Assembly: GCF_900110275.1 (NCBI RefSeq)
Contig: NZ_FODC01000005.1
Location: 62,001-126,000 of the forward strand
Length of the DNA stretch: 64,000 nt
Source: Duganella sp. CF517
GTDB taxonomy: Bacteria > Pseudomonadota > Gammaproteobacteria > Burkholderiales > Burkholderiaceae_D
Direction: 5' to 3'
Shown here: positions 6,034-18,891 of the stretch, in pieces
How the letters are laid out: each line of letters opens with the position of its first letter
Numbering within the stretch: position 1 is the stretch's first letter
The notes under the pieces: generated by a model
Seen by the model: only the letters and a program-made list of their open reading frames with translations
Told to the model about the DNA's origin: nothing
The model's database searches: none
Made by a program: the position numbers and the translations under genes

Positions 6034-9000
6034 ATGAAACGCATGTTGTTTAATGCTACGCAGCAAGAAGAGCTGCGCGTAGCGATCGTCGACGGTCAGA
6101 AACTGATCGATATCGACATCGAAACCGCCGGACGCGAACAGCGCAAGTCCAACATCTACAAAGGCGTGATCACCCGCATCGAGCCCTCGCTGGAAGCGTG
6201 CTTCGTCAGTTACGGCGAAGATCGCCACGGTTTCCTCCCTTTCAAAGAAGTAGCCCGCACTTATTTCCGTGAAGGTGTCGACGTCCGTACCGCCTCCGTC
6301 AAGGAAGCGCTGCGCGAAGGCCAGGAAATCATGGTCCAGGTCGAAAAGGAAGAGCGCGGCAACAAGGGCGCCGCCCTGACCTCGTTCGTCTCGCTGGCCG
6401 GCCGCTATCTGGTCTTGATGCCGAACAACCCGCGCGGTGGCGGTGTTTCCCGCCGTGTCGAAGGTGAAGAGCGCCAGGAATTGCGCGAAACCATGGACAA
6501 GCTGGACCTGCCGCCTGGCATGTCGGTCATCGCCCGCACCGCCGGCATCGGCCGCAACGTCGACGAGCTGCAGTGGGACTTGAACTACCTGATGCAACTG
6601 TGGCGCGCGATCGAAGGCGCCGGCAAGTCGGCCTCCGGCGCGTTCCTGATCTACCAGGAATCGTCGCTGGTGATCCGCGCGATCCGCGACTACTTCCAGC
6701 CCGATATCGGCGAGATCCTGATCGATACCGACGATATCTACGAACAAGCGCACCAGTTCATGAGCCACGTGATGCCCGACATGGTGCACCGCGTGAAGCG
6801 CTACAGCGACGACGTGCCGCTGTTCTCGCGTTTCCAGATCGAACACCAGATTGAAACGGCGTACTCGCGCACCGTGCCGCTGCCATCGGGCGGCGCCATC
6901 GTCATCGACCACACCGAAGCGCTGGTGTCGGTCGACGTCAACTCGGCGCGCGCCACGCGCGGCTCGGACATCGAGACCACCGCCTTCAACACCAACTGCG
7001 AAGCGGCCGAGGAAGTGGCGCGCCAGCTGCGCTTGCGCGACCTGGGCGGCCTGATCGTGATCGACTTCATCGACATGGAAGTGGCCAAGAACCAGCGCGA
7101 AGTCGAACAGCGCCTGAAGGACGCGCTGCACCACGACCGCGCCCGTGTTCAGATGGGCAAGATTTCCCGCTTCGGCCTGATGGAACTGTCGCGCCAGCGC
7201 CTGCGTCCGTCGCTGTCGGAAGGTTCGCACGTGACGTGCCCGCGCTGCTCCGGCACCGGCCACATCCGCGACACCGAATCGTCGGCGCTGCAAGTGCTGC
7301 GCATCATCCAGGAAGAGGCGATGAAGGAAAACTCGGCCACCATCCACGTGCAGGTGCCCGTGGACGTCGCCGCCTTCCTGCTCAACGAAAAGCGCGGCGA
7401 AGTGCTGAAGATCGAAAACCGCCACCGCATCGCCGTGATCCTGATCCCGAACAAGCATCTGGACACGCCGCACTACAAGCTCGAGCGCATCAAGCACGAC
7501 GATCCGCGTCTGGAAGACAGCCAGGCCAGCTACACCCTGGCCGAGAGCGCCGAAACCGACATGGCCTACAGCAAGCGCCAGAAGGAAGAAGCCAAGCCGC
7601 GCCAGGAAGCCATGGTCAAGACCATCACGCCTGACCAGCCGGCCCCGCTGGTCGAGCGCAAGCCGGCCGAAACCGTCATCACGCCGGCCCCGGCGCCGGT
7701 GCCCGCACCGGCCGAGCAAGGCTTCTTCGCCAAGCTGTTCAGCTTCCTGAGCCCGAAACCGGCCCCGGTCGCGCAGCCGCAGCAGCCGACCATCGTCGTC
7801 AAGGCGCCGTCGCCGGACCGTGGCGACCGCAACGCCCGCGGCCCGCGCGGCCGCAGCCGTAACGGCAAAGGCGCCCGTGGCGAGCGCGAAGAGCGCGAAC
7901 CGGGCGCGGCCCGTCCGGCGGCGGATGACGCCAAGCCGGTCGACGCCAGCGGCCGCCCGGCCCGTCCGCCACGTCCGCCGCGCGAACCGCGCGAGCCGCG
8001 TGAGAACACCGGCGCCGGCATCACCGCCGACGGCCAGGCGCCGCGCGAGCGCGCCGAACGTCCCGAGCGCGCCGAGCGTCCGGAACGTGCCGAGCGCACT
8101 CCGCGTCCACCACGCGAACCGCGCGCCGACAAGGCCCCGGTTGAAGCCAAAGTGGAAGAGCTGGCCTTGAACGCGGGTCTGGCATCGACCGGTCCGCTGA
8201 CCGGCGCCGACGCCGCCACCAGCATCCTGAAGACCGCGCCGAACGCCGGTCCCGAGGGCGATGACAACGACGTGACGGCCGACGGCGAAGAACCGCGCCG
8301 CCGCCGCCGTCGTGGCGGTCGCAACCGCAACCGCCGCGACCGCGAAGGTGGCGAGGGCGTCGAAGGTATCGACGGCCAGGAAACCGAAGCGGCCGGCGAA
8401 GCTGGCGAGCACGGCGAGCACAAAACGCCGAGCTTCAGCGTCGCTCCGGCGGCCGAAGCGGCCGCCGTGGCAACCGACGCCGATGTCGCACCGGCGCCGG
8501 TCGAAGCATCCGTGACGGCCGAGCCGGTTACCGCGAACGTTGAAGCGGCCGAGCCGGCACCTGTGGTTGAGACCGCTGCAGCCGCGGCCCCGGCGCCAGC
8601 GATCGAAGCGGCGCCAGTGGCCGAGCCGGCCGCAGCCTCGCTCGACGGCACCGTTGTGATGCAAGCCCAGGCGCCAGCCGAAGCGGCAACGCCGGTTCAA
8701 ACCGAGGACGCCTTTGCGGCCCCGGTCGCCGAGCCGGTCGCCGCGCCAGCGGCGGTCGCCGAAGCCGCCGCGCCAGTGGCAGCCGAGGTCGCTCCGATCG
8801 AAGCGCCAGTGGAAGCCAAGGTCGAAGCGCCAGTGTCGGCACCGGTTGAAGCGCCTGCCGTCGCGGAGCCAGTCGCTGCCGCGCCAGCACCAGTGCCAGC
8901 CCCGGCGCCGGCACCAGTGGCCGCCCCGGCACCCGCCCCTGTAGCAGCCCCTGCCGCTCCAGCCGCCCCGATCGACCTGCAGGCAGTGCTCGGCTCCGCC

Positions 9001-9153
9001 GGCCTGACCCTGGCAGCCACCGACCCGGCCAAGCTGCGCGCGGCGCAGGAAGCCGCCGCCAAGGTAGCGGCCCCGGTGCGCGTTCCACGCGAACGCAAGC
9101 CACTGCCACCGCAAGCGGACGAGCCGCTGGTTCAAGTCGACACCCGCCGCTAA
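6034..9153 (+). CDS. rne: Ribonuclease E
   Basis: The 1039-aa protein begins MKRMLFNATQQEELRVAIVD and has the RNase E/G catalytic half: S1 domain (about 37-125), 5' sensor and RNase H-like parts, DNase I-like region with active-site acids (VDVNSARATRG, then VIDFIDMEV), and the Zn-link CPRCSGTG. This endonuclease starts mRNA decay and processes rRNA and tRNA precursors. The C-terminal half, from about residue 520, is disordered: an Arg-rich stretch with repeated ERAERPERAER units, then a long Ala/Pro/Val/Glu repeat region. That half normally carries RNA-binding and degradosome scaffold sites. It is monocistronic, with a leader rich in structure and a clear terminator. Confidence 0.97.
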   Translation: MKRMLFNATQQEELRVAIVDGQKLIDIDIETAGREQRKSNIYKGVITRIEPSLEACFVSYGEDRHGFLPFKEVARTYFREGVDVRTASVKEALREGQEIMVQVEKEERGNKGAALTSFVSLAGRYLVLMPNNPRGGGVSRRVEGEERQELRETMDKLDLPPGMSVIARTAGIGRNVDELQWDLNYLMQLWRAIEGAGKSASGAFLIYQESSLVIRAIRDYFQPDIGEILIDTDDIYEQAHQFMSHVMPDMVHRVKRYSDDVPLFSRFQIEHQIETAYSRTVPLPSGGAIVIDHTEALVSVDVNSARATRGSDIETTAFNTNCEAAEEVARQLRLRDLGGLIVIDFIDMEVAKNQREVEQRLKDALHHDRARVQMGKISRFGLMELSRQRLRPSLSEGSHVTCPRCSGTGHIRDTESSALQVLRIIQEEAMKENSATIHVQVPVDVAAFLLNEKRGEVLKIENRHRIAVILIPNKHLDTPHYKLERIKHDDPRLEDSQASYTLAESAETDMAYSKRQKEEAKPRQEAMVKTITPDQPAPLVERKPAETVITPAPAPVPAPAEQGFFAKLFSFLSPKPAPVAQPQQPTIVVKAPSPDRGDRNARGPRGRSRNGKGARGEREEREPGAARPAADDAKPVDASGRPARPPRPPREPREPRENTGAGITADGQAPRERAERPERAERPERAERTPRPPREPRADKAPVEAKVEELALNAGLASTGPLTGADAATSILKTAPNAGPEGDDNDVTADGEEPRRRRRRGGRNRNRRDREGGEGVEGIDGQETEAAGEAGEHGEHKTPSFSVAPAAEAAAVATDADVAPAPVEASVTAEPVTANVEAAEPAPVVETAAAAAPAPAIEAAPVAEPAAASLDGTVVMQAQAPAEAATPVQTEDAFAAPVAEPVAAPAAVAEAAAPVAAEVAPIEAPVEAKVEAPVSAPVEAPAVAEPVAAAPAPVPAPAPAPVAAPAPAPVAAPAAPAAPIDLQAVLGSAGLTLAATDPAKLRAAQEAAAKVAAPVRVPRERKPLPPQADEPLVQVDTRR

Positions 9154-9170
9154 GCTGGTGAAGTAGCGAA

Positions 9171-9202
9171 AAAAAAAGGGAAGCCGCGCGCTTCCCTTTT
9201 TT
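9171..9202 (+). terminator. rne terminator
   Basis: GGGAAGC (9178-9184) pairs with GCTTCCC (9190-9196) around CGCGC, flanked by A7 on the left and T6 on the right. It starts about 18 bases after the rne stop and should work in both directions. Confidence 0.85.
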
Positions 9203-9311
9203 CATTCTGCCGACGTGGTTTGATATGGCCGCTAAACCCGCTCGGCGCCATCGTGCTATCGTAGCTCCTTCGGCGGTAAGCGAATTTCCTTAACAGCAAT
9301 ATTGTAGAGTC

Positions 9312-10439
9312 ATGGCAGAAAAAATCATCATGATGGCCCAGCAGCGCCGCGGCGCGCCGGCCATTCCCGCGATCCTGGAAGCGCCCACCGGCCTGCTGAG
9401 CGATCAGCTGGCGCGGCCGCTGCACGACCTGCGCATCTCCGTGACCGACCGTTGCAACTTCCGCTGCGTCTATTGCATGCCGAAGGCGGTGTTCGACAAC
9501 GATTACCAGTACCTGCCGCACACCTCGCTGCTGTCGTTCGAGGAGATCACGCGGCTGGCCAAGACCTTCATCGCCCACGGCGTCGAGAAAATCCGCCTGA
9601 CCGGCGGCGAGCCGCTGCTGCGCAAGAACCTCGAACGCCTGATCGGCATGCTCGCCGAACTCAAAACCATCGACGGCAAGCCGCTCGACCTGACCCTGAC
9701 CACCAACGCCTCGCTGCTGGCGCGCAAGGCGCAATCGCTCAAGGACGCCGGCCTGCAACGCGTGACCGTTTCGCTCGACGCGCTCGACAACGCCACCTTC
9801 CAGCGCATGAACGATGTCGACTTCTCGGTCGACGACGTGCTCAAGGGCATAGACGTGGCGCACCAGGTGGGCCTGGGCCCGATCAAGATCAACATGGTGG
9901 TCAAGGGCGGCATGAACGACGACCAGATCCTGCCGATGGCGCGCCACTTCCGCAACACGCCGTTCATCCTGCGCTTCATCGAATACATGGACGTCGGCGC
10001 CTCCAACGGCTGGAAGATGGACGAGGTGATTCCGTCGGCCGAGGTGGTGCGCCGCATCCAGGCCGAGATGGCGCTCGAGCCGGTCGCCGCCAACTACGCC
10101 GGCGAAACGGCGGCGCGCTGGCGCTACGTGGACAACGACGGCGCCGGCGCCGGCGCCGGCGAGATTGGCCTGATCTCCAGCGTCACGCAAGCCTTCTGCG
10201 CGAACTGCTCGCGCGCACGCCTGTCGACCGAGGGTAAGCTTTACACCTGCCTGTTCGCCACCAGCGGCCACGATCTGCGCGCGCTGCTGCGCGAGGGCCG
10301 CAGCGACGAGGAAATCAGCACCGTGCTGGCGCACCTGTGGCGCGCGCGCGGCGACCGCTATTCCGAACTGCGCACCAACAATACCGACGGCCTGCCACGC
10401 AGCGCCAACAAGGTCGAAATGTCTTACATCGGAGGGTAG
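9312..10439 (+). CDS. moaA: GTP 3',8-cyclase, molybdenum cofactor step 1
   Basis: The 375-aa radical-SAM enzyme carries the N-terminal cluster motif CNFRCVYC (C48, C52, C55) and the C-terminal cluster motif [20 protein letters not shown]. It ends in GG (SYIGG), the tail needed for activity in this family. MoaA converts GTP to 3',8-cyclo-GTP, which MoaC turns into cyclic pyranopterin. The next gene, a MobA-MoeA fusion, begins six bases after its stop, so early and late cofactor steps are co-transcribed. The start at 9312 has a poor ribosome site; an in-frame ATG six codons later (9330) is a possible alternative. Confidence 0.95.
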
Positions 10440-10444
10440 TGTCT

Positions 10445-12364
10445 GTGAAGAGCAAGATCACCGGGCTGATACTCGCGGGCGGGCGCGGCACCCGCATGGG
10501 CCGCGTCGACAAAGGCTTGCAGCCGTTCCGCGGCACCACCATGATCGCCCATGTGCTGCGCCGCCTGGCGCCGCAGGTCGACACCGTCGCCATCAACGCC
10601 AACCGCAATCTGCCGCAATACCAGGCCGCCGCCGGCGCCGACACCGTCGTCATGCCCGACCAAATGAGCGGCTTCGAAGGCCCGCTGGCCGGCCTGCAAG
10701 CGGGCTTGCATTACTGCGCCACCGAGTTGCTATTGACGGCGCCGTGCGACTCGCCCTTCCTGCCGGCCGACCTGGCCGCGCGCCTGTACGCCGCGCTGGA
10801 GACCGAAAATGCCGACCTGGCCGTCGCCGTGACCATGGAAACGGACGAACAGGATGGCGGCGCCCCCTACCGCCAGCCGCATCCCGTATTCAGCCTGCTC
10901 AAGGCCAGCCTGCTGCCGCAACTGGAGGCTTACCTCGCCACCGGCGCGCGCCGCGTGGAGGGCTGGCACAAATCGCTGCGCGTGGCCGAGGTGATGTTCG
11001 ACGACGCCTCCGCCTTCCGCAATATCAATACGCTGGAAGAGTTGAAGCGGCACGAGCCCGAAGCGGCCACACCCGCCGCGACGCCGGTCCCCGCCGCATC
11101 CCCGGCCGGCGACCCGGACGCCCTGCCCGTCGACGAGGCGCGCCGGCTGATCGCCCAGCGCGTCACGCCTGTCGCGGCGACCGAAAAAGTCGCTGTATGC
11201 TCGGCGCTGGACCGCGTGCTGGCCGAGGACATCATCTCGCCGATCAACGTCCCCGCCTACGACAACTCGGCGATGGACGGCTACGCGCTGCGCGGCGCCG
11301 ACTTGCCGCTCGACGCGGGCGCCGGACCGGTCACCCTCAAGGTCATCGGCGCCGCCTACGCCGGCCGTCCCTTCGAAAAAACGGCGGCGCCCGGCGAATG
11401 CGTGCGCATCATGACCGGCGCCGCCATGCCGCCCGGTTGCGACAGCGTGCTGCCGCAGGAACTGGCGGCGGCGATCGGCGAATCGAGCGTGACCATCGCG
11501 CACGGCACGATCCGCGCCGGCGCCAACCGCCGCTTCGCCGGCGAAGATTTGACCGCCGGCGGCGTCGCGCTGGCGCGAGGCAAAATCATGCGTCCCGCCG
11601 ATCTGGGTCTGGTCGCGTCGCTCGGCATCGCCGAAGTGACGGTGCGGCGCCGCCTGCGCGTGGCGTTCTTCTCCACCGGCGACGAACTGCGCTCGCTGGG
11701 CGACACGCTCGATACGGGCTGCGTCTACGACAGCAACCGCTACACCTTGTTCGGCATGCTCACGCGCCTCGGCTGCGAGGTCGTCGACCTGGGCATCGTG
11801 CGCGACGACCCGGCGGCGCTGCAGGCGGCGCTGCGGTCGGCATGCCGGGAGGCGGACGCCATCATCACCTCGGGCGGCGTGTCCGAGGGCGCGGCCGACT
11901 ACACGCGCGACATCATGGCGCTGCTCGGCGACGTCGCTTTCTGGAAGCTGGCGATGCGGCCGGGCCGTCCGCTCGCCTTCGGCGAGGTGCGGACCGGCGA
12001 CGGCGCCGCCTGGCTGTTCGGATTGCCGGGCAATCCGGTGGCGGTGATGGTGTCGTTCTATCTGTTCGCGCGGCCGGCGCTGTTGCGCATGATGGGCGTG
12101 GACGAGGCGCGGACCATGCCGCAAACGACGCGCGCGCGGGCCACGGAAGCGATCCGCAAACGCCCCGGCCGCACCGAGTACCAGCGCGGCATCGTCTCGA
12201 CCGGCGTCGATGGCGGCGCGCAGGTGCGGCTGACCGGCGCGCAGGGCTCGGGCATCCTCAGTTCGATGACGGAGGCCAATTGCATTGTCGTGCTGCGGCA
12301 CGGGCAGGCCGGCGTCGCCGTTGGCGACCCGGTCGACATCATCCTGTTTGACGGGTTGATTTAG
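10445..12364 (+). CDS. MobA-MoeA fusion: molybdenum cofactor guanylyltransferase and molybdenum transferase
   Basis: One 639-codon frame joins two enzymes. Residues 1-203 are MobA-like: LILAGGRGTRMGRVDKG at the N-terminus is the nucleotide-binding loop, and LTAPCDSPFLP follows at about 97-107. Residues 204-226 are an Ala/Pro linker. Residues 227-639 are MoeA: PAYDNSAMDGYALR (270-283), SGGVSEGAADYT and LPGNPVAVMVSF. MoeA inserts molybdate into adenylated molybdopterin; MobA then adds GMP. The GTG start at 10445 is set by GGAGG at 10431-10435, nine bases upstream. No start codon or ribosome site is visible at the junction, so this looks like a real fusion and not two overlapping genes. Confidence 0.88.
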   Translation: MKSKITGLILAGGRGTRMGRVDKGLQPFRGTTMIAHVLRRLAPQVDTVAINANRNLPQYQAAAGADTVVMPDQMSGFEGPLAGLQAGLHYCATELLLTAPCDSPFLPADLAARLYAALETENADLAVAVTMETDEQDGGAPYRQPHPVFSLLKASLLPQLEAYLATGARRVEGWHKSLRVAEVMFDDASAFRNINTLEELKRHEPEAATPAATPVPAASPAGDPDALPVDEARRLIAQRVTPVAATEKVAVCSALDRVLAEDIISPINVPAYDNSAMDGYALRGADLPLDAGAGPVTLKVIGAAYAGRPFEKTAAPGECVRIMTGAAMPPGCDSVLPQELAAAIGESSVTIAHGTIRAGANRRFAGEDLTAGGVALARGKIMRPADLGLVASLGIAEVTVRRRLRVAFFSTGDELRSLGDTLDTGCVYDSNRYTLFGMLTRLGCEVVDLGIVRDDPAALQAALRSACREADAIITSGGVSEGAADYTRDIMALLGDVAFWKLAMRPGRPLAFGEVRTGDGAAWLFGLPGNPVAVMVSFYLFARPALLRMMGVDEARTMPQTTRARATEAIRKRPGRTEYQRGIVSTGVDGGAQVRLTGAQGSGILSSMTEANCIVVLRHGQAGVAVGDPVDIILFDGLI

Positions 12365-12372
12365 CGCCGCGC

Positions 12373-14340
12373 CTACTCTTGCTGCCTTAACCGCAGCAGC
12401 GCCTCGGCCGAATCGGCGAACAGCGCCGCGTCCTTCTCGATGCGGCGGAACGCCCGCCCCAGGCTGGCGCGCATGAAGGTGCTGTGCGCGTAGCGCGTGA
12501 CCTTGCTGTAGTAGCGCTCCGCCAGCTGGTTGACCGCCTCCACATACTGGTCCATCAAGTCCGGCGCGATCGAGAAATTGTCGTAGTTGATCACCGCCGG
12601 CACCTTGCGTCCCAACGGCGCCAGGCGCTCCGACACCAGCGCGCAAATACGCTCGATGGTGGCCGCGTCGCCCACCTCGAAACCTTCGAAGTTCACGAAG
12701 AACAGCTGCTGCTGCGCGTCGTACACCAGCCGCTGCTCCAGCGGCCGCGCGAGGAAATCGACCCGCCAGTTCATCGGCAACGGCGCGAAAATGCGCGCGT
12801 CCATCAGTTTCAGCTGCGCGCTGATCGAAGGCTTGAAATCCATCTGCGCCAGGATGTCGCGCTCCAGATCGACGCCGGGCGCGATCTCGATCAACTCCAA
12901 TCCCGACATGCCGCCATCGAGCACCAGCTTGAACACGCAACGCTCGGTGACGAACAAGGCTTCCTGCCCCCGCCGCGCGGCATATTCGCCACTGTAGGTG
13001 CGATGCTCTACCTCCGCGACGAATTTGCGCGTGCGCCCCTTGTCGGCGGTGAAGGTGCCGACGAACACCACCTTGCGCGCGTTCTGGCTGATATTGATGA
13101 AGCCCCCGGCGCCGGCCAGCTTGCTGCCGAACTTACTGACATTCAGATTGCCGTGCCGGTCCGCCTGCGCCAGGCCGAGGAAGGCCACATCGAGCCCGCC
13201 GCCGTCGTAGAAATCGAACTGGTACGGCTGGTCGATGACGGCGTCCGCGTTGGTGGCCGCGCCGAAGTTCAAGCCGCCGGCCGGCAGGCCGCCGATCACG
13301 CCCGGTTCGGCCGTCAAGGTCACCAGGTCGAGCAGCTTCTCCTCCGCCGCGACGTTGGCCACGCCCTCGGGCATGCCGATGCCGAGGTTGACGACATTGT
13401 TCGGCCGCAGCTCCATCAGCGCGCGGCGCGCGATGATCTTGCGCTCCGATAGCGGCATCGGCGCCATCGCCGACAAGGCCACGCGCAGCTCGCCGGCGAA
13501 GGCCGGGTTGTAGGGCTCGGCGAAGGTCTGCATGTGGTATTCGGGCTTCTCGGCCACCACCACGCAGTCGACCAGGATGCCGGGTATCTTGACCTGGCGC
13601 GGGTTGAGCGTGCCCCGCTCGGCGATCCGCTCGACCTGCACGATGACGATGCCGCCGGAGTTGTGCGCCGCCATCGCGATCGCCAGCGCCTCCAAGGTCA
13701 GCGCCTCGCGCTCCATGGTGACGTTGCCGTTGGCGTCGGCCGTCGTGCCGCGGATGATCCCCACGTGCACCGGCTGCGCCTTGTAGAACAGGTATTCGTT
13801 GCCGCCCATGGTGGCCACCTCCACCAGCTCCTCGGTGGTGCGGTCGTTGATCTTGCCGCCGCCGTGGCGCGGATCGACAAACGTCCCGAGGCCGACGTGC
13901 GTGAGCAATCCCGGCTTGCCGGCGGCGGTGTCGCGAAACAGCTGGCTGATGACGCCTTGCGGCAGGTTGTACGCCTCGATCTTGCCGGCGATGGCCAGCT
14001 GCTGCAGCTTGGGGACCAAACTCCAGTGGCCGCCGACGACGCGTTTGAGCATGCCCTCGTGCGCCAGGTGATTGAGGCCGCGATCCTTGCCGTCGCCCTG
14101 CCCGGCCGCGTAGACCAGGGTCAGGTCGCGCGGATGGCCGCCGCCGTCGGACGCCGGCGCCAGGAAGCGCCGCTCCAGCGCCACCGCGATATTTTCGGCG
14201 AAACCGACGCCGACAAACCCGCCGGTGGCGATGGTGTCGCCGTCGCGTATCAGGCCGACCGCGTCGGCCGCGCTGACGATCTTGTCGCGCTGGACGGCCG
14301 GCATGCCGACGGTGGAAAAATCAAGGCTACGTCCTGGCAT
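12373..14340 (-). CDS. Acyl-CoA:acetate/3-ketoacid CoA transferase, fused alpha and beta subunits
   Basis: The 655-aa protein contains both CoA transferase family I halves in one chain: an N-terminal alpha part ([16 protein letters not shown] near residue 34) and a C-terminal beta part ([18 protein letters not shown], then [14 protein letters not shown]). The Glu in TAEPG is the expected covalent CoA-thioester residue. This architecture matches YdiF-type enzymes, which swap CoA between short-chain acids. It converges on the MobA-MoeA gene with only eight bases between stops. It is the fourth gene of the minus-strand run that starts at cqsA, though a separate promoter near 14341-14368 cannot be excluded. 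Confidence 0.9.
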
Positions 14341-16166: not shown

Positions 16167-17444
16167 TTACACCAGCGCCAGCCGGTCCAGACGCCGCGTC
16201 GACGACCAGCTCTCCAGGTCGACCTGCGGGCGGATATCCTCGCACGCCTGGACGATGCGCGCCAATTGCGAACCGTCCAGGCCCGAGTTGAGCGTCAGCC
16301 GCACCAGCGAACGGTTCTTGGCGGTGGCGGGCGCGCAAAACATGGCGCCGTAGATGCCGTGCGTCTCGAGCAGCTTGCGCAGCGCCAAGGTCTTGGGCTC
16401 GGGGCCCGGCTCCAGCGCGATGATCTGCTCGCTGCCCTCGCTGACGTTGTAGCCGAGCGCGCCCAACTCCTCGCGCAGCTCGAGCGCGTTCGCGCGCAAG
16501 GCGGCGCGGCGGTCGTCGGCCGCCGCGACGAAATCGATGGCGGCGTCGAACCAGGCCAGTTCGTGACCCAGCAGACAGGAGCTGAAAATGGCCGGCCGCG
16601 ATTCCGACAGGAAGTAACCCTTGAACTTGTTCGAACACGTGATGAAGCCGGCGCGCCCGGCGAAGGCCTTGGCCAGCGACGCCGTGCGGAAATGCACGCG
16701 CTCGCTCAAGCCCTGCGCCGCCACCAGCCCGGCGCCGCGCGGTCCGTGCGTGCCCAGCGAATGCGATTCGTCGACGATCAGCAGGCAGCCGTGTTGCTCC
16801 GCGATCTCCACCAGCTCCCGCAGCGGCGCCACGCTGCCGTTGGTGCTGTAGAGCGCGTCGACGGCGATCAGCCCGCGTCCATGGCGCGCCAGTTGCTTGC
16901 GCAAGTGCTGCATGTCATTGTGCAGGAACGACACCGGCGCCGCCCCGGCCGACTGCACGCCCTCCCACAGCGACGCGTGGGCCTGGATGTCCAGGTACAC
17001 CGGGATGCCGGGCGCGGCCAGGGTCTGCACCAGGCCGACATTGGCGGCCCAGCCCGATTGCGCGAGGATGCCGTCCTGCGCGCCCATCAGCGCGGCGAAC
17101 CGGCGCTCCAGCCGGTGCTGGGCGCTGCCCTCCTGCAAATACACGGCCGACATCAGCATTCCGCCGCCGCTGTCGCGCAGCGCGGCGATCTGCGCGCCCA
17201 CCAGCGCCGGCTCCCCGCCCAGGCACAGATAGTCGTTGCCGGCCAAGAACACCGTGCCGCGCGGCGTCGGCTGCCACGCGTGCGGGTGCTCGCCGCCCAG
17301 CAATTGTTCGATGCGGGTGATGTAATGCTGGTCCATGCGGGCGTTGACATAGTCCGGCATGGCTTGCTCGGCGGATAGGGTCAAGCCATGGGAAAGGGAG
17401 GTGGCATTGCCACGCATGCGGTTTTCAGCGATAGCTCGGGACAT
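16167..17444 (-). CDS. jqsA: CqsA/LqsA/JqsA-type alpha-hydroxyketone autoinducer synthase
   Basis: This 425-aa fold-type I PLP enzyme belongs to the alpha-oxoamine synthase group. Key features are FLAGNDYLCLGG (67-78), SGWAANVGLVQ (130-140), LLIVDESHSLGTHGPRG (221-237) and the PLP lysine K259 in ASLAKAFAGRAG. CqsA enzymes condense an acyl-CoA with an amino-acid-derived donor to make CAI-1-like signals. The divergent neighbours are a CqsS/LqsS-type kinase and an LqsR-type regulator, so this is the signal synthase of a JQS/LQS locus, not a biotin or haem enzyme. ATG 17444 is chosen because GAGGAG lies eight bases upstream. The 56-codon upstream extension is not conserved in character. Confidence 0.9.
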   Translation of the reverse strand: MSRAIAENRMRGNATSLSHGLTLSAEQAMPDYVNARMDQHYITRIEQLLGGEHPHAWQPTPRGTVFLAGNDYLCLGGEPALVGAQIAALRDSGGGMLMSAVYLQEGSAQHRLERRFAALMGAQDGILAQSGWAANVGLVQTLAAPGIPVYLDIQAHASLWEGVQSAGAAPVSFLHNDMQHLRKQLARHGRGLIAVDALYSTNGSVAPLRELVEIAEQHGCLLIVDESHSLGTHGPRGAGLVAAQGLSERVHFRTASLAKAFAGRAGFITCSNKFKGYFLSESRPAIFSSCLLGHELAWFDAAIDFVAAADDRRAALRANALELREELGALGYNVSEGSEQIIALEPGPEPKTLALRKLLETHGIYGAMFCAPATAKNRSLVRLTLNSGLDGSQLARIVQACEDIRPQVDLESWSSTRRLDRLALV

Positions 17445-17523
17445 TTTATGATCTCCTCGGAAGTGGAAAGGTTGCAATTTGTGAATCTCATGTCGCACCT
17501 TGCAGCAAATAAAGAGAGGGAGA

Positions 17524-17537
17524 TTGATGCAAATCAA
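17524..17537. promoter_or_regulatory. Perfect FNR/ANR box between jqsA and jqsS
   Basis: TTGATGCAAATCAA matches the FNR consensus TTGATNNNNATCAA at every fixed base. Its centre is 87 bp from the jqsA ATG and about 80 bp from the preferred jqsS ATG, so it could serve either promoter. A further TTGAT half-site lies at 17545-17549. I see no good -10 at ideal class II spacing on either side, so repression or a different promoter class is also possible. Confidence 0.6.
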
Positions 17538-17610
17538 CTTGTGATTTGATATGGCCGGGCATGTTCCGATTTCAGGCGATGATGCAAACTTGATACACGT
17601 CACATCGGCC

Positions 17611-18891
17611 ATGAAGCATCCCCTGCAAGCACGCTGGAAACGTTGGCAACACGGAGTGGTCCAGTCGCTGCTGCTCTATCATGGCCGCGAGGACCATGCG
17701 ACGGTGCGCGTGCTGCTGTTGGCGTGCATCGGCACGGTGGGCATGCCGCTGTATTACGTGATCTGGCAGCATTTTTTCCCGCAGGAATATGAAAGCCTGC
17801 CGCTGCGCATGGTCGGCATCCTGCTGTGCGCGCTGGGCCTGTTCGCGCGCCAGTTCACGCGCCGCATGCTCGAGTTGTACCTGCTGGTGGCGCTGAGCTA
17901 CATCTTTCCGTTCTTCTTCACATTCATGTTCGTCATGAACCACGCCTCGGGCGTGTGGGCCGAGTCGCTGCTGATCGGCCTGGTCGTGCTGTTCCACTTC
18001 GATACCGGCCTGGCGCTGCGGGCCTATGTGATCGGCACCGCGCTGGCGTGCGTGGTCGTCGTCGCGCTCGGTGAGGCCGCCACCCTGCTCGGCAAGCCGG
18101 TGTTGCAGCAATTGCCGGTGCAATGGTTCACCATCGCCGTGCTGTCGGCGGCCAAGATCAGCCGCAACGTGCTGGCGCAGGAAAAGCTGGCCGGGCTGGG
18201 CGCGGGGCTGGCCACCGTGGCCCACGAGCTGCGCACGCCGCTGACCAGCGTCGACGCCAACGTGCGCGGCCTGCTCAGGTTGTTCTCGGACATCAACGGC
18301 CGCGTGGCCGAAGACCGGCTCGGCACGATCGACGCGCTGGCCCGCATCCAGTTCGAGGTGCGGCACATGAACCACATGATCGACCTGTTCCTGCTCAGCG
18401 CCACGGCGGTGCGGCAAAACCTGCGCCCGGTCGAGGCGGTCTCGATGGAGACGGCGGTCGAGGCGGTGCTCAAGCGCTACCCGTTCTCCAGCGCCGGCCA
18501 GCAAAAAATGGTCACGCTGGAGGTGCGCCGCAATTTCCGCTTCGCCGGCCAGGCCGAGCTGTCGGTGGTGATCCTGCTCAATTTGCTGCGCAACGCGCTC
18601 AAGGCGGTGCAGCGCGCCGGCAAGGGCCGCGTGCGCATCGTCGTCGACGGCGCCCACGAGCCGCCGCGCCTGCTGTTCATCGACACCGGCTGCGGCATTC
18701 CGGCGCCGCAGATGTCGCTGATTTTTCGCCGCTTCTATTCCTATCCGCCGCACAATGGCGCCGGGATAGGCCTGGCGCTGTGCCAGGAAATCATGGAAGC
18801 GTGGAACGCCACCATCCGGTGCGTGTCGCGCGAAAGCGCGTACGCCATCTTCGTGCTGGAGTTTCCCCAGCAGTTGTCCACTTCGAGGTGA
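17611..18891 (+). CDS. jqsS: Quorum-sensing sensor histidine kinase, CqsS/LqsS/JqsS type
   Basis: A 426-aa kinase with about six N-terminal membrane segments and a cytoplasmic core: H-box AHELRTPLTSVDANVRG (H205), N-box LLNLLRNALKAV, G1 FIDTGCGIP and G2 GAGIGLALCQEIM. The membrane part contains MPLYYVIWQHFFPQEYESL, which resembles the first helices of Vibrio CqsS. No receiver domain follows, as in LqsS/JqsS and unlike CqsS. The family senses alpha-hydroxyketones and switches between kinase and phosphatase states. MKHPLQAR at 17611 is preferred; an ATG at 17551 would add 20 codons of poor coding character and put the FNR box 14 bases from the start. Neither has a good ribosome site. Confidence 0.88.
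   Translation: MKHPLQARWKRWQHGVVQSLLLYHGREDHATVRVLLLACIGTVGMPLYYVIWQHFFPQEYESLPLRMVGILLCALGLFARQFTRRMLELYLLVALSYIFPFFFTFMFVMNHASGVWAESLLIGLVVLFHFDTGLALRAYVIGTALACVVVVALGEAATLLGKPVLQQLPVQWFTIAVLSAAKISRNVLAQEKLAGLGAGLATVAHELRTPLTSVDANVRGLLRLFSDINGRVAEDRLGTIDALARIQFEVRHMNHMIDLFLLSATAVRQNLRPVEAVSMETAVEAVLKRYPFSSAGQQKMVTLEVRRNFRFAGQAELSVVILLNLLRNALKAVQRAGKGRVRIVVDGAHEPPRLLFIDTGCGIPAPQMSLIFRRFYSYPPHNGAGIGLALCQEIMEAWNATIRCVSRESAYAIFVLEFPQQLSTSR

Follow-up and report, generated by a model that had tools for sequence, protein, structure and literature searches.

A mobA-moeA fusion gene in Duganella and its relatives, predicted to join two consecutive steps of molybdenum cofactor synthesis

In the 64,000-nucleotide stretch of Duganella sp. 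CF517 DNA that we analysed (hereafter the window), the genes for MobA and MoeA are fused in a single open frame of 639 residues (10445-12364, forward strand) that is translated without an inner stop. Since MobA works on the Mo-MPT that MoeA makes, the fusion joins two consecutive steps of molybdenum cofactor (Moco) synthesis. Judging from the sequence comparisons below, we lean, without great assurance, towards a single bifunctional enzyme that would insert molybdenum and form bis-MGD, with preferential hand-over between its halves and a division of the cofactor branches; hand-over of the unfinished cofactor without a separate step would be plausible. The earlier note on this DNA had described MobA and MoeA in one frame, joined by a 23-residue Ala/Pro linker, with moaA upstream, and both descriptions were borne out by the translation and by the Pfam and NCBIfam matches. 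The features of the locus are as follows.

9312-10439, forward strand: moaA, GTP 3',8-cyclase, directly upstream of the fusion (TIGR02666, 381.6 bits, cut-off 284.05)
10431-10436, forward strand: GGAGGG, Shine-Dalgarno-like, 8 bases 5' of the GTG start
10445-12364, forward strand: mobA-moeA fusion gene, 639 amino acids, GTG start, TAG stop
10457-11047, forward strand: MobA domain, molybdenum cofactor guanylyltransferase, residues 5-201 (TIGR02665, E. coli MobA structures)
11042-11044, forward strand: TTG at residue 200, at the end of MobA, the sole in-frame possible start near the joint, with GGAAG 2 bases 5'
11054-11122, forward strand: Ala/Pro-rich linker, residues 204-226 (pLDDT below 50 at residues 206-221)
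11123-12349, forward strand: MoeA domain, molybdopterin molybdotransferase, residues 227-635 (PRK10680, all MoeA parts in Pfam, structure 1fc5, Foldseek)

Five bases separate the end of moaA from the GTG of the fusion, and no Rfam match to a Moco riboswitch was found in 8800-12800 of the window at E values up to 0.5. Downstream, on the reverse strand, 12373-14340 encodes a 655-residue CoA-transferase-like protein with matches to the 3-oxoacid CoA-transferase models of subunits A and B alike, neither of which reaches the respective cut-off; its nearest model is FadX (404 bits, under the cut-off of 750), and the C-terminal stretch past residue 518 lies outside the best match. Further on are an alpha-hydroxyketone-type quorum-sensing autoinducer synthase (16167-17612, reverse strand; PRK07179, 534.1 bits, cut-off 428) and, divergent to it, a histidine kinase-like gene (17551-18891, forward strand), which together resemble a signalling pair of the Cqs/Lqs/Jqs type.

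Pfam places NTP_transf_3 at residues 7-173 of the fusion, MoeA_N at 227-394, MoCF_biosynth at 410-547 and MoeA_C at 563-635, and in NCBIfam the MobA match (residues 5-201) and the MoeA match (227-635) each exceed their own cut-offs. The MobA half covers the whole of TIGR02665 (211.5 bits, cut-off 151.85, model positions 1-186 of 186) and matches the E. coli MobA structures 1fr9/1e5k with E about 1e-28. The MobA motif consists of a GTP-binding glycine loop, an active-site lysine and an aspartate; the fusion carries the active-site motifs LAGGRGTRMGRVDKGL, D72 and PCD102, and G12, G13, R17, M18, G19, K23, D72 and D102 are invariant among 29 aligned fused proteins. The MoeA half scores 557 bits against PRK10680 (cut-off 440, model positions 1-401 of 401) and matches the E. 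coli MoeA structure 1fc5 with E 2e-108. Of the nine residues with mutants among the E. coli MoeA structures, the fusion retains eight (E. coli = fusion: D59=D278, T100=T324, R137=R363, D142=D368, E188=E414, D228=D454, R350=R581 and S371=S602), the ninth, K279, being R505 in the fusion; these residues were placed by hand on the alignment to E. coli MoeA, and the mutant names (e.g. E188Q, D228A) were taken from the Foldseek matches.

An AlphaFold2 model computed on a 29-row alignment, drawn from 29 of the 65 fused proteins, has a mean pLDDT of 85.6 and a pTM of 0.53, so that the arrangement of the domains is without confident placement and yields no interface; besides the linker, pLDDT falls below 50 at residues 267-272 and 365-372 within MoeA. 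Its best Foldseek matches are to E. coli MoeA (TM 0.72-0.76 when normalised to the target's length; rmsd 6-8 A), and the best 50 rows are MoeA-type chains only, which do not bear on the MobA half. Among the 65 fused loci the linker varies widely in sequence and in length (4 to 65 residues, median 22) and is unconserved. Because linkers of such different lengths connect well-folded domains whose whole-chain confidence is low, we infer two folded enzymes on a loose tether rather than a fixed tunnel.

The earlier note had proposed a check for another mobA or moeA, and its outcome differed for the two genes. In this genome no MobA other than the fused copy exceeds the TIGR02665 cut-off. A further MoeA, free of MobA, is encoded as well (42% identical over residues 201-616; 398.4 bits against the PRK10680 cut-off of 440), so the fusion is not the sole molybdenum insertase. 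The free moeA (L165, G000 C15, about 630600-627600, minus strand) lies between two frames, one thrC-like and the other short, MoaD-like and with GG as its last residues, both names being our own reading, and no moaE was recognised by eye beside this row of genes. A free second MoeA is present in 59 of the 60 sampled genomes of the window's genus, the exception, G056, being 60% complete. A second MobA-like protein (L089) fits MocA best, at 91.4 bits against a cut-off of 186.45, and is from its sequence MocA-like at most; it adjoins a frame whose molybdopterin-binding domains (PF02738, PF20256) are those of the xanthine dehydrogenase type. MogA (L164, 322.5 bits, cut-off 158) and MobB (L166, 146.1 bits, cut-off 26.6, elsewhere in the genome) are separate genes. 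Matches to PF00384, a family that also takes in NuoG-like proteins, and to PF20256 are both present in 60/60 sampled genomes of the genus, so their presence or absence cannot discriminate on the idea of divided branches.

In the mechanism that we propose, the MoeA half would take adenylylated molybdopterin from the separate MogA and insert molybdate, giving Mo-MPT, and the flexibly tethered MobA half would join Mo-MPT into bis-Mo-MPT and add GMP from GTP. E. coli MoeA dimerises, and the MoeA half would be expected to do the same. The tether would raise the local concentration of MobA around MoeA, Mo-MPT from the fused copy would pass preferentially to the MGD branch, and the free second MoeA could meet the remaining demand, for instance that of the MCD branch (MocA and the xanthine dehydrogenase family). 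A possible role of the fused copy in the MGD branch is suggested by the free MoeA together with the MocA-like gene beside the xanthine dehydrogenase-type frame. In this scheme it is predicted that both halves are active, that MoeA forms a dimer, that Mo-MPT is handed over preferentially and that the two MoeA copies divide the work.

Contact between the two enzymes has precedents. Transfer from MoeA to both XdhC and MobA has reportedly been observed, in work cited in a review. The part of that review at hand has MobA as a possible recipient of the Mo-MPT that MogA/MoeA produce, and suggests that MoeA, MogA, MobA and XdhC form a complex (PMC2997495). In the available text of a further source, MobA starts by joining two Mo-MPT, the addition of two GMP comes second, and the mechanism of joining is described as not completely resolved (PMC9103625). 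In Methylorubrum, as given in the available portion of the study, MoeA1 with MobA gave a high two-hybrid signal and a mobA deletion was unobtainable (PMC13197769). However, the same authors favour a more distributed system over a permanently assembled complex, which counts against the reading that we prefer. Several of our own results also count against it: the variable linker, in which no conserved contact is seen, the free MoeA of nearly every genome of the genus, owing to which a MoeA untied to MobA is nearly always at hand, and the relatives described below, in which separate genes serve the same chemistry.

A domain search across Burkholderiales, as proposed in the earlier note, found the same fusion to be widespread in the window's clade, the soil and water bacteria around Duganella and Massilia. 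The fused counts for the family, order and class samples are lower bounds, low-scoring fused cases being possibly missing. At least 44 of 195 genomes of the family are fused (G041 and at least 43 stop-free matches over the full length), with 12/12 in genus g1, 5/5 in g4, 12/12 in g19, 12/12 in g6, at least 1/12 in g12, 1/1 in g20 and at least 1/12 in g7. In the order sample (399 genomes, including 13 or more of this family), G528 is fused outside the family among the matches listed, and in the class sample (369 genomes) the matches listed hold no full-length fusion besides the window. The class-sample genome G893 was rejected as a fusion, since its match began at residue 166 and mobA lies beside moeA in another frame. 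The best 78 of 313 loci comprise 35 that are fused, 38 with mobA just 5' of moeA but separate, one with mobA and moeA apart, and four without MobA in the stretch. Fused records are labelled Duganella, Rugamonas, Pseudoduganella and Massilia, with two named to family only, and the adjacent but separate arrangement occurs in Burkholderia, Caballeronia, Paraburkholderia, Trinickia, Herbaspirillum, Undibacterium, Glaciimonas, Oxalicibacterium and Methylotenera, among others. One metagenome-assembled genome under the label Duganella (L082) has separate genes and falls with Herbaspirillum on the tree. Separate moaA-mobA-moeA genes, as in Burkholderia and Herbaspirillum, are presumably the ancestral state.

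The fusion seems, on trees built from both domains, to have arisen more than once. A first tree of 129 rows (65 fused, 63 split, and the frameshifted L098, which is neither), from which we left out loci without MobA, loci in which over 1000 bases separate MobA from MoeA, and identical sequences, requires five changes without the frameshifted row and six if that row is counted as not fused, and its starred branches force at least four or five. A more careful tree of 63 rows, hand-picked from the 129 for spread, gives six changes, of which at least four are forced; the position of L044 differs between the two trees. AU tests on these 63 rows, with groups defined once the first tree was known, reject a single shared origin for the full set of fused rows (p-AU 1.1e-6) and still do so when the two most distant of these are set aside (p 0.0099). 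They do not reject the main fused group as a unit apart from the nested split rows (p 0.083). The three outlying fused cases (L096, L104 and L116) are one genome each, and a sequencing error is possible in any one of them. Five split rows of genus g12 (L124-L128) are nested among fused relatives, a further point against the preferred reading; three of them (L124, L125 and L127) show an ATGA stop/start overlap of mobA and moeA, and a re-splitting of the fused gene is possible in this group.

The linkers retain traces of how the genes were joined. In the window the end of the linker, DPDA, and the following LPV match the N-terminal extension of unfused MoeA relatives, and in many relatives the linker likewise retains this extension (e.g. 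SCLSAYDPDALPV), so the original spacer and the start region of moeA appear to have become the linker. In G528, MobA runs almost straight into the unfused-MoeA extension, which points to a deletion, and in the four rows of g6 about four linker residues are left. The length of the spacer is divisible by three in 46 of the 63 split loci, many of them close relatives, and with the frame kept in this way the loss of a stop codon can suffice for fusion.

This ease of fusion lends weight to the most serious alternative, that of a bifunctional polypeptide without preferential hand-over, in which the fusion of neighbouring genes would have fixed a 1:1 ratio or been near-neutral, and Mo-MPT would reach MobA as it does with separate proteins. 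The adjacency of mobA and moeA after moaA in many split relatives fits it, as does the unconserved linker, although the more than one origin on the trees and the persistence of the fusion in every sampled genome of g1, g4, g19 and g6 speak mildly for some advantage. We regard it as possible, if clearly short of an even chance.

Production of two proteins, with MoeA made from an internal start or released by a protease that cuts the linker, besides or instead of the fusion, is in our view improbable. The claim of the earlier note that no start codon exists at the joint holds for the linker itself, within which the window has no in-frame ATG, GTG or TTG, but not for the end of MobA, where residue 200 is a TTG. 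This TTG could serve as an internal start, although GGAAG is just 2 bases away from it. Among the 65 fused loci, 58 have at least one in-frame ATG, GTG or TTG near the joint, 27 have one strictly within the linker, and 11 share a possible start placed 12 codons from MoeA; a disordered Ala/Pro linker would also be easily cut. However, 38 of the 65 are without any such codon in the linker and seven without any near the joint, and these figures do not support an internal start conserved across the fused loci. The absence of a ribosome site at the joint, which the earlier note had also brought forward, proved a weak argument: by a simple pattern, a Shine-Dalgarno-like sequence precedes moeA in just 5 of the 63 split loci and stands near the joint in 5 of the 65 fused ones, so that its absence there is uninformative.

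That a frame or assembly error joined two separate genes, which the earlier note had named as a refutation, is hardly credible for the window and, like chance, excluded for the clade, given that MobA and MoeA share one open frame in 58 of the 60 sampled genomes of the window's genus and that dN/dS is low on either side of the joint (0.047-0.329 for the two domains in seven pairwise comparisons), even though frame changes do occur in such records, as in G019. Fifty-four of the 58 are single matches without a stop, and the four with insertions (G001, G008, G020 and G041) are continuous when read. For the linker, dN/dS reached 1.2 in one of the seven comparisons (L005), with only 19-26 codons per comparison. 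The fused MobA is also the sole MobA over the cut-off in 58 of the 60, and weak extra MobA-like matches with inner stops in G034 and G058 fall under the TIGR02665 cut-off. In the one-contig genome G019 (L098), mobA-moeA is frameshifted in a G-rich run and forms two overlapping frames, through either a sequencing error or a recent mutation. The other exception, G038 (L159), is without a MobA-MoeA match and without a MobA over the TIGR02665 cut-off, and keeps six PF00384 matches; an assembly gap is as likely as an unusual loss, and we therefore rejected this genome as a natural loss with which to probe the divided branches. G038 also has a different moaA, two genes after a frame for a nitrate reductase gamma subunit, with a PPIase gene between.

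Returning to the bifunctional enzyme with preferential hand-over, its closest known counterparts are gephyrin and Cnx1 (animals, fungi and plants), in which a MoeA domain is likewise joined to the enzyme of a neighbouring Moco step through a variable linker. Their partner is MogA, which acts in the step before MoeA, whereas here it is MobA, of the step after, with MogA as a separate gene; the MogA domain of the gephyrin/Cnx1 type is absent from the fused chain, whose MoCF_biosynth stretch at residues 410-547 is the only one in Pfam. A 2013 paper on gephyrin, cited in PMC11489736, is said to claim product-substrate channelling in its title. In E. coli, mobA and moeA are two separate genes; the window has one, whose product belongs to the same protein families, with the MoeA fold match and the eight MoeA residues kept. 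The bacterial MobB/MoeA fusion (NF011060, PRK14491) likewise has a Mob protein N-terminal to MoeA, and its MoeA part aligns. However, the window's fusion scores 472.7 bits against its cut-off of 532, over profile positions 189-598 only, and has MobA as its N-terminal domain, and we therefore rejected this assignment. The MobA/MobB (PRK14489, PRK14490) and MoaC/MobA (PRK14500) fusions also contain a MobA domain, with other partners, and the fusion lies far below their cut-offs; Glp, a divisome MoeA-like protein (NF045515), was rejected as well (333 bits against 475).

Both the MobA-MoeA interaction and Moco gene fusions as a kind are published, and within that kind we did not find the pairing of MobA with MoeA described. 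The literature was searched by title and the start of the abstract among the papers listed, with most subscription papers and public protein annotation outside its scope, so that the pairing may have been recorded in other places, and the exact strings MobA-MoeA and MoeA-MobA gave no match in it. NCBIfam holds no MobA/MoeA model among the matches listed (25 of the 30 matched families). The word MobA is absent from the available main text of two studies on MoeA and molybdenum insertase fusions (PMC11733289, PMC11489736), and a comparative study of molybdenum use, in the text at hand, names it once, in the methods (PMC6147048). The first of these, a survey of MoeA evolution, proposes in its accessible part a repeated fusion of the MogA-MoeA type and describes individual enzymes in prokaryotes and multi-enzyme fusions in eukaryotes (PMC11733289). 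The Duganella/Massilia clade is an exception to that description, with MoeA joined to its downstream partner, and the MobB/MoeA model of NCBIfam represents another bacterial one.

A recurrent natural fusion would provide independent genetic evidence for contact between bacterial MoeA and MobA, which had previously been inferred from two-hybrid and transfer work. The fused protein would be a ready tool for asking about the protected hand-over of Mo-MPT and the pairing of two Mo-MPT, with the split relatives in the same family as natural controls. We put forward more tentatively, as a doubtful extension, that the fusion may be a dedicated bis-MGD synthase, in which a MoeA dimer would present Mo-MPT to the tethered MobA so that pairing takes place inside one assembly, and which would split molybdenum between MGD, through the fused MoeA, and MCD/MPT, through the free one. 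If that is true, the convergent fusions of several lineages of beta-proteobacteria would reflect selection for protected transfer of the cofactor.
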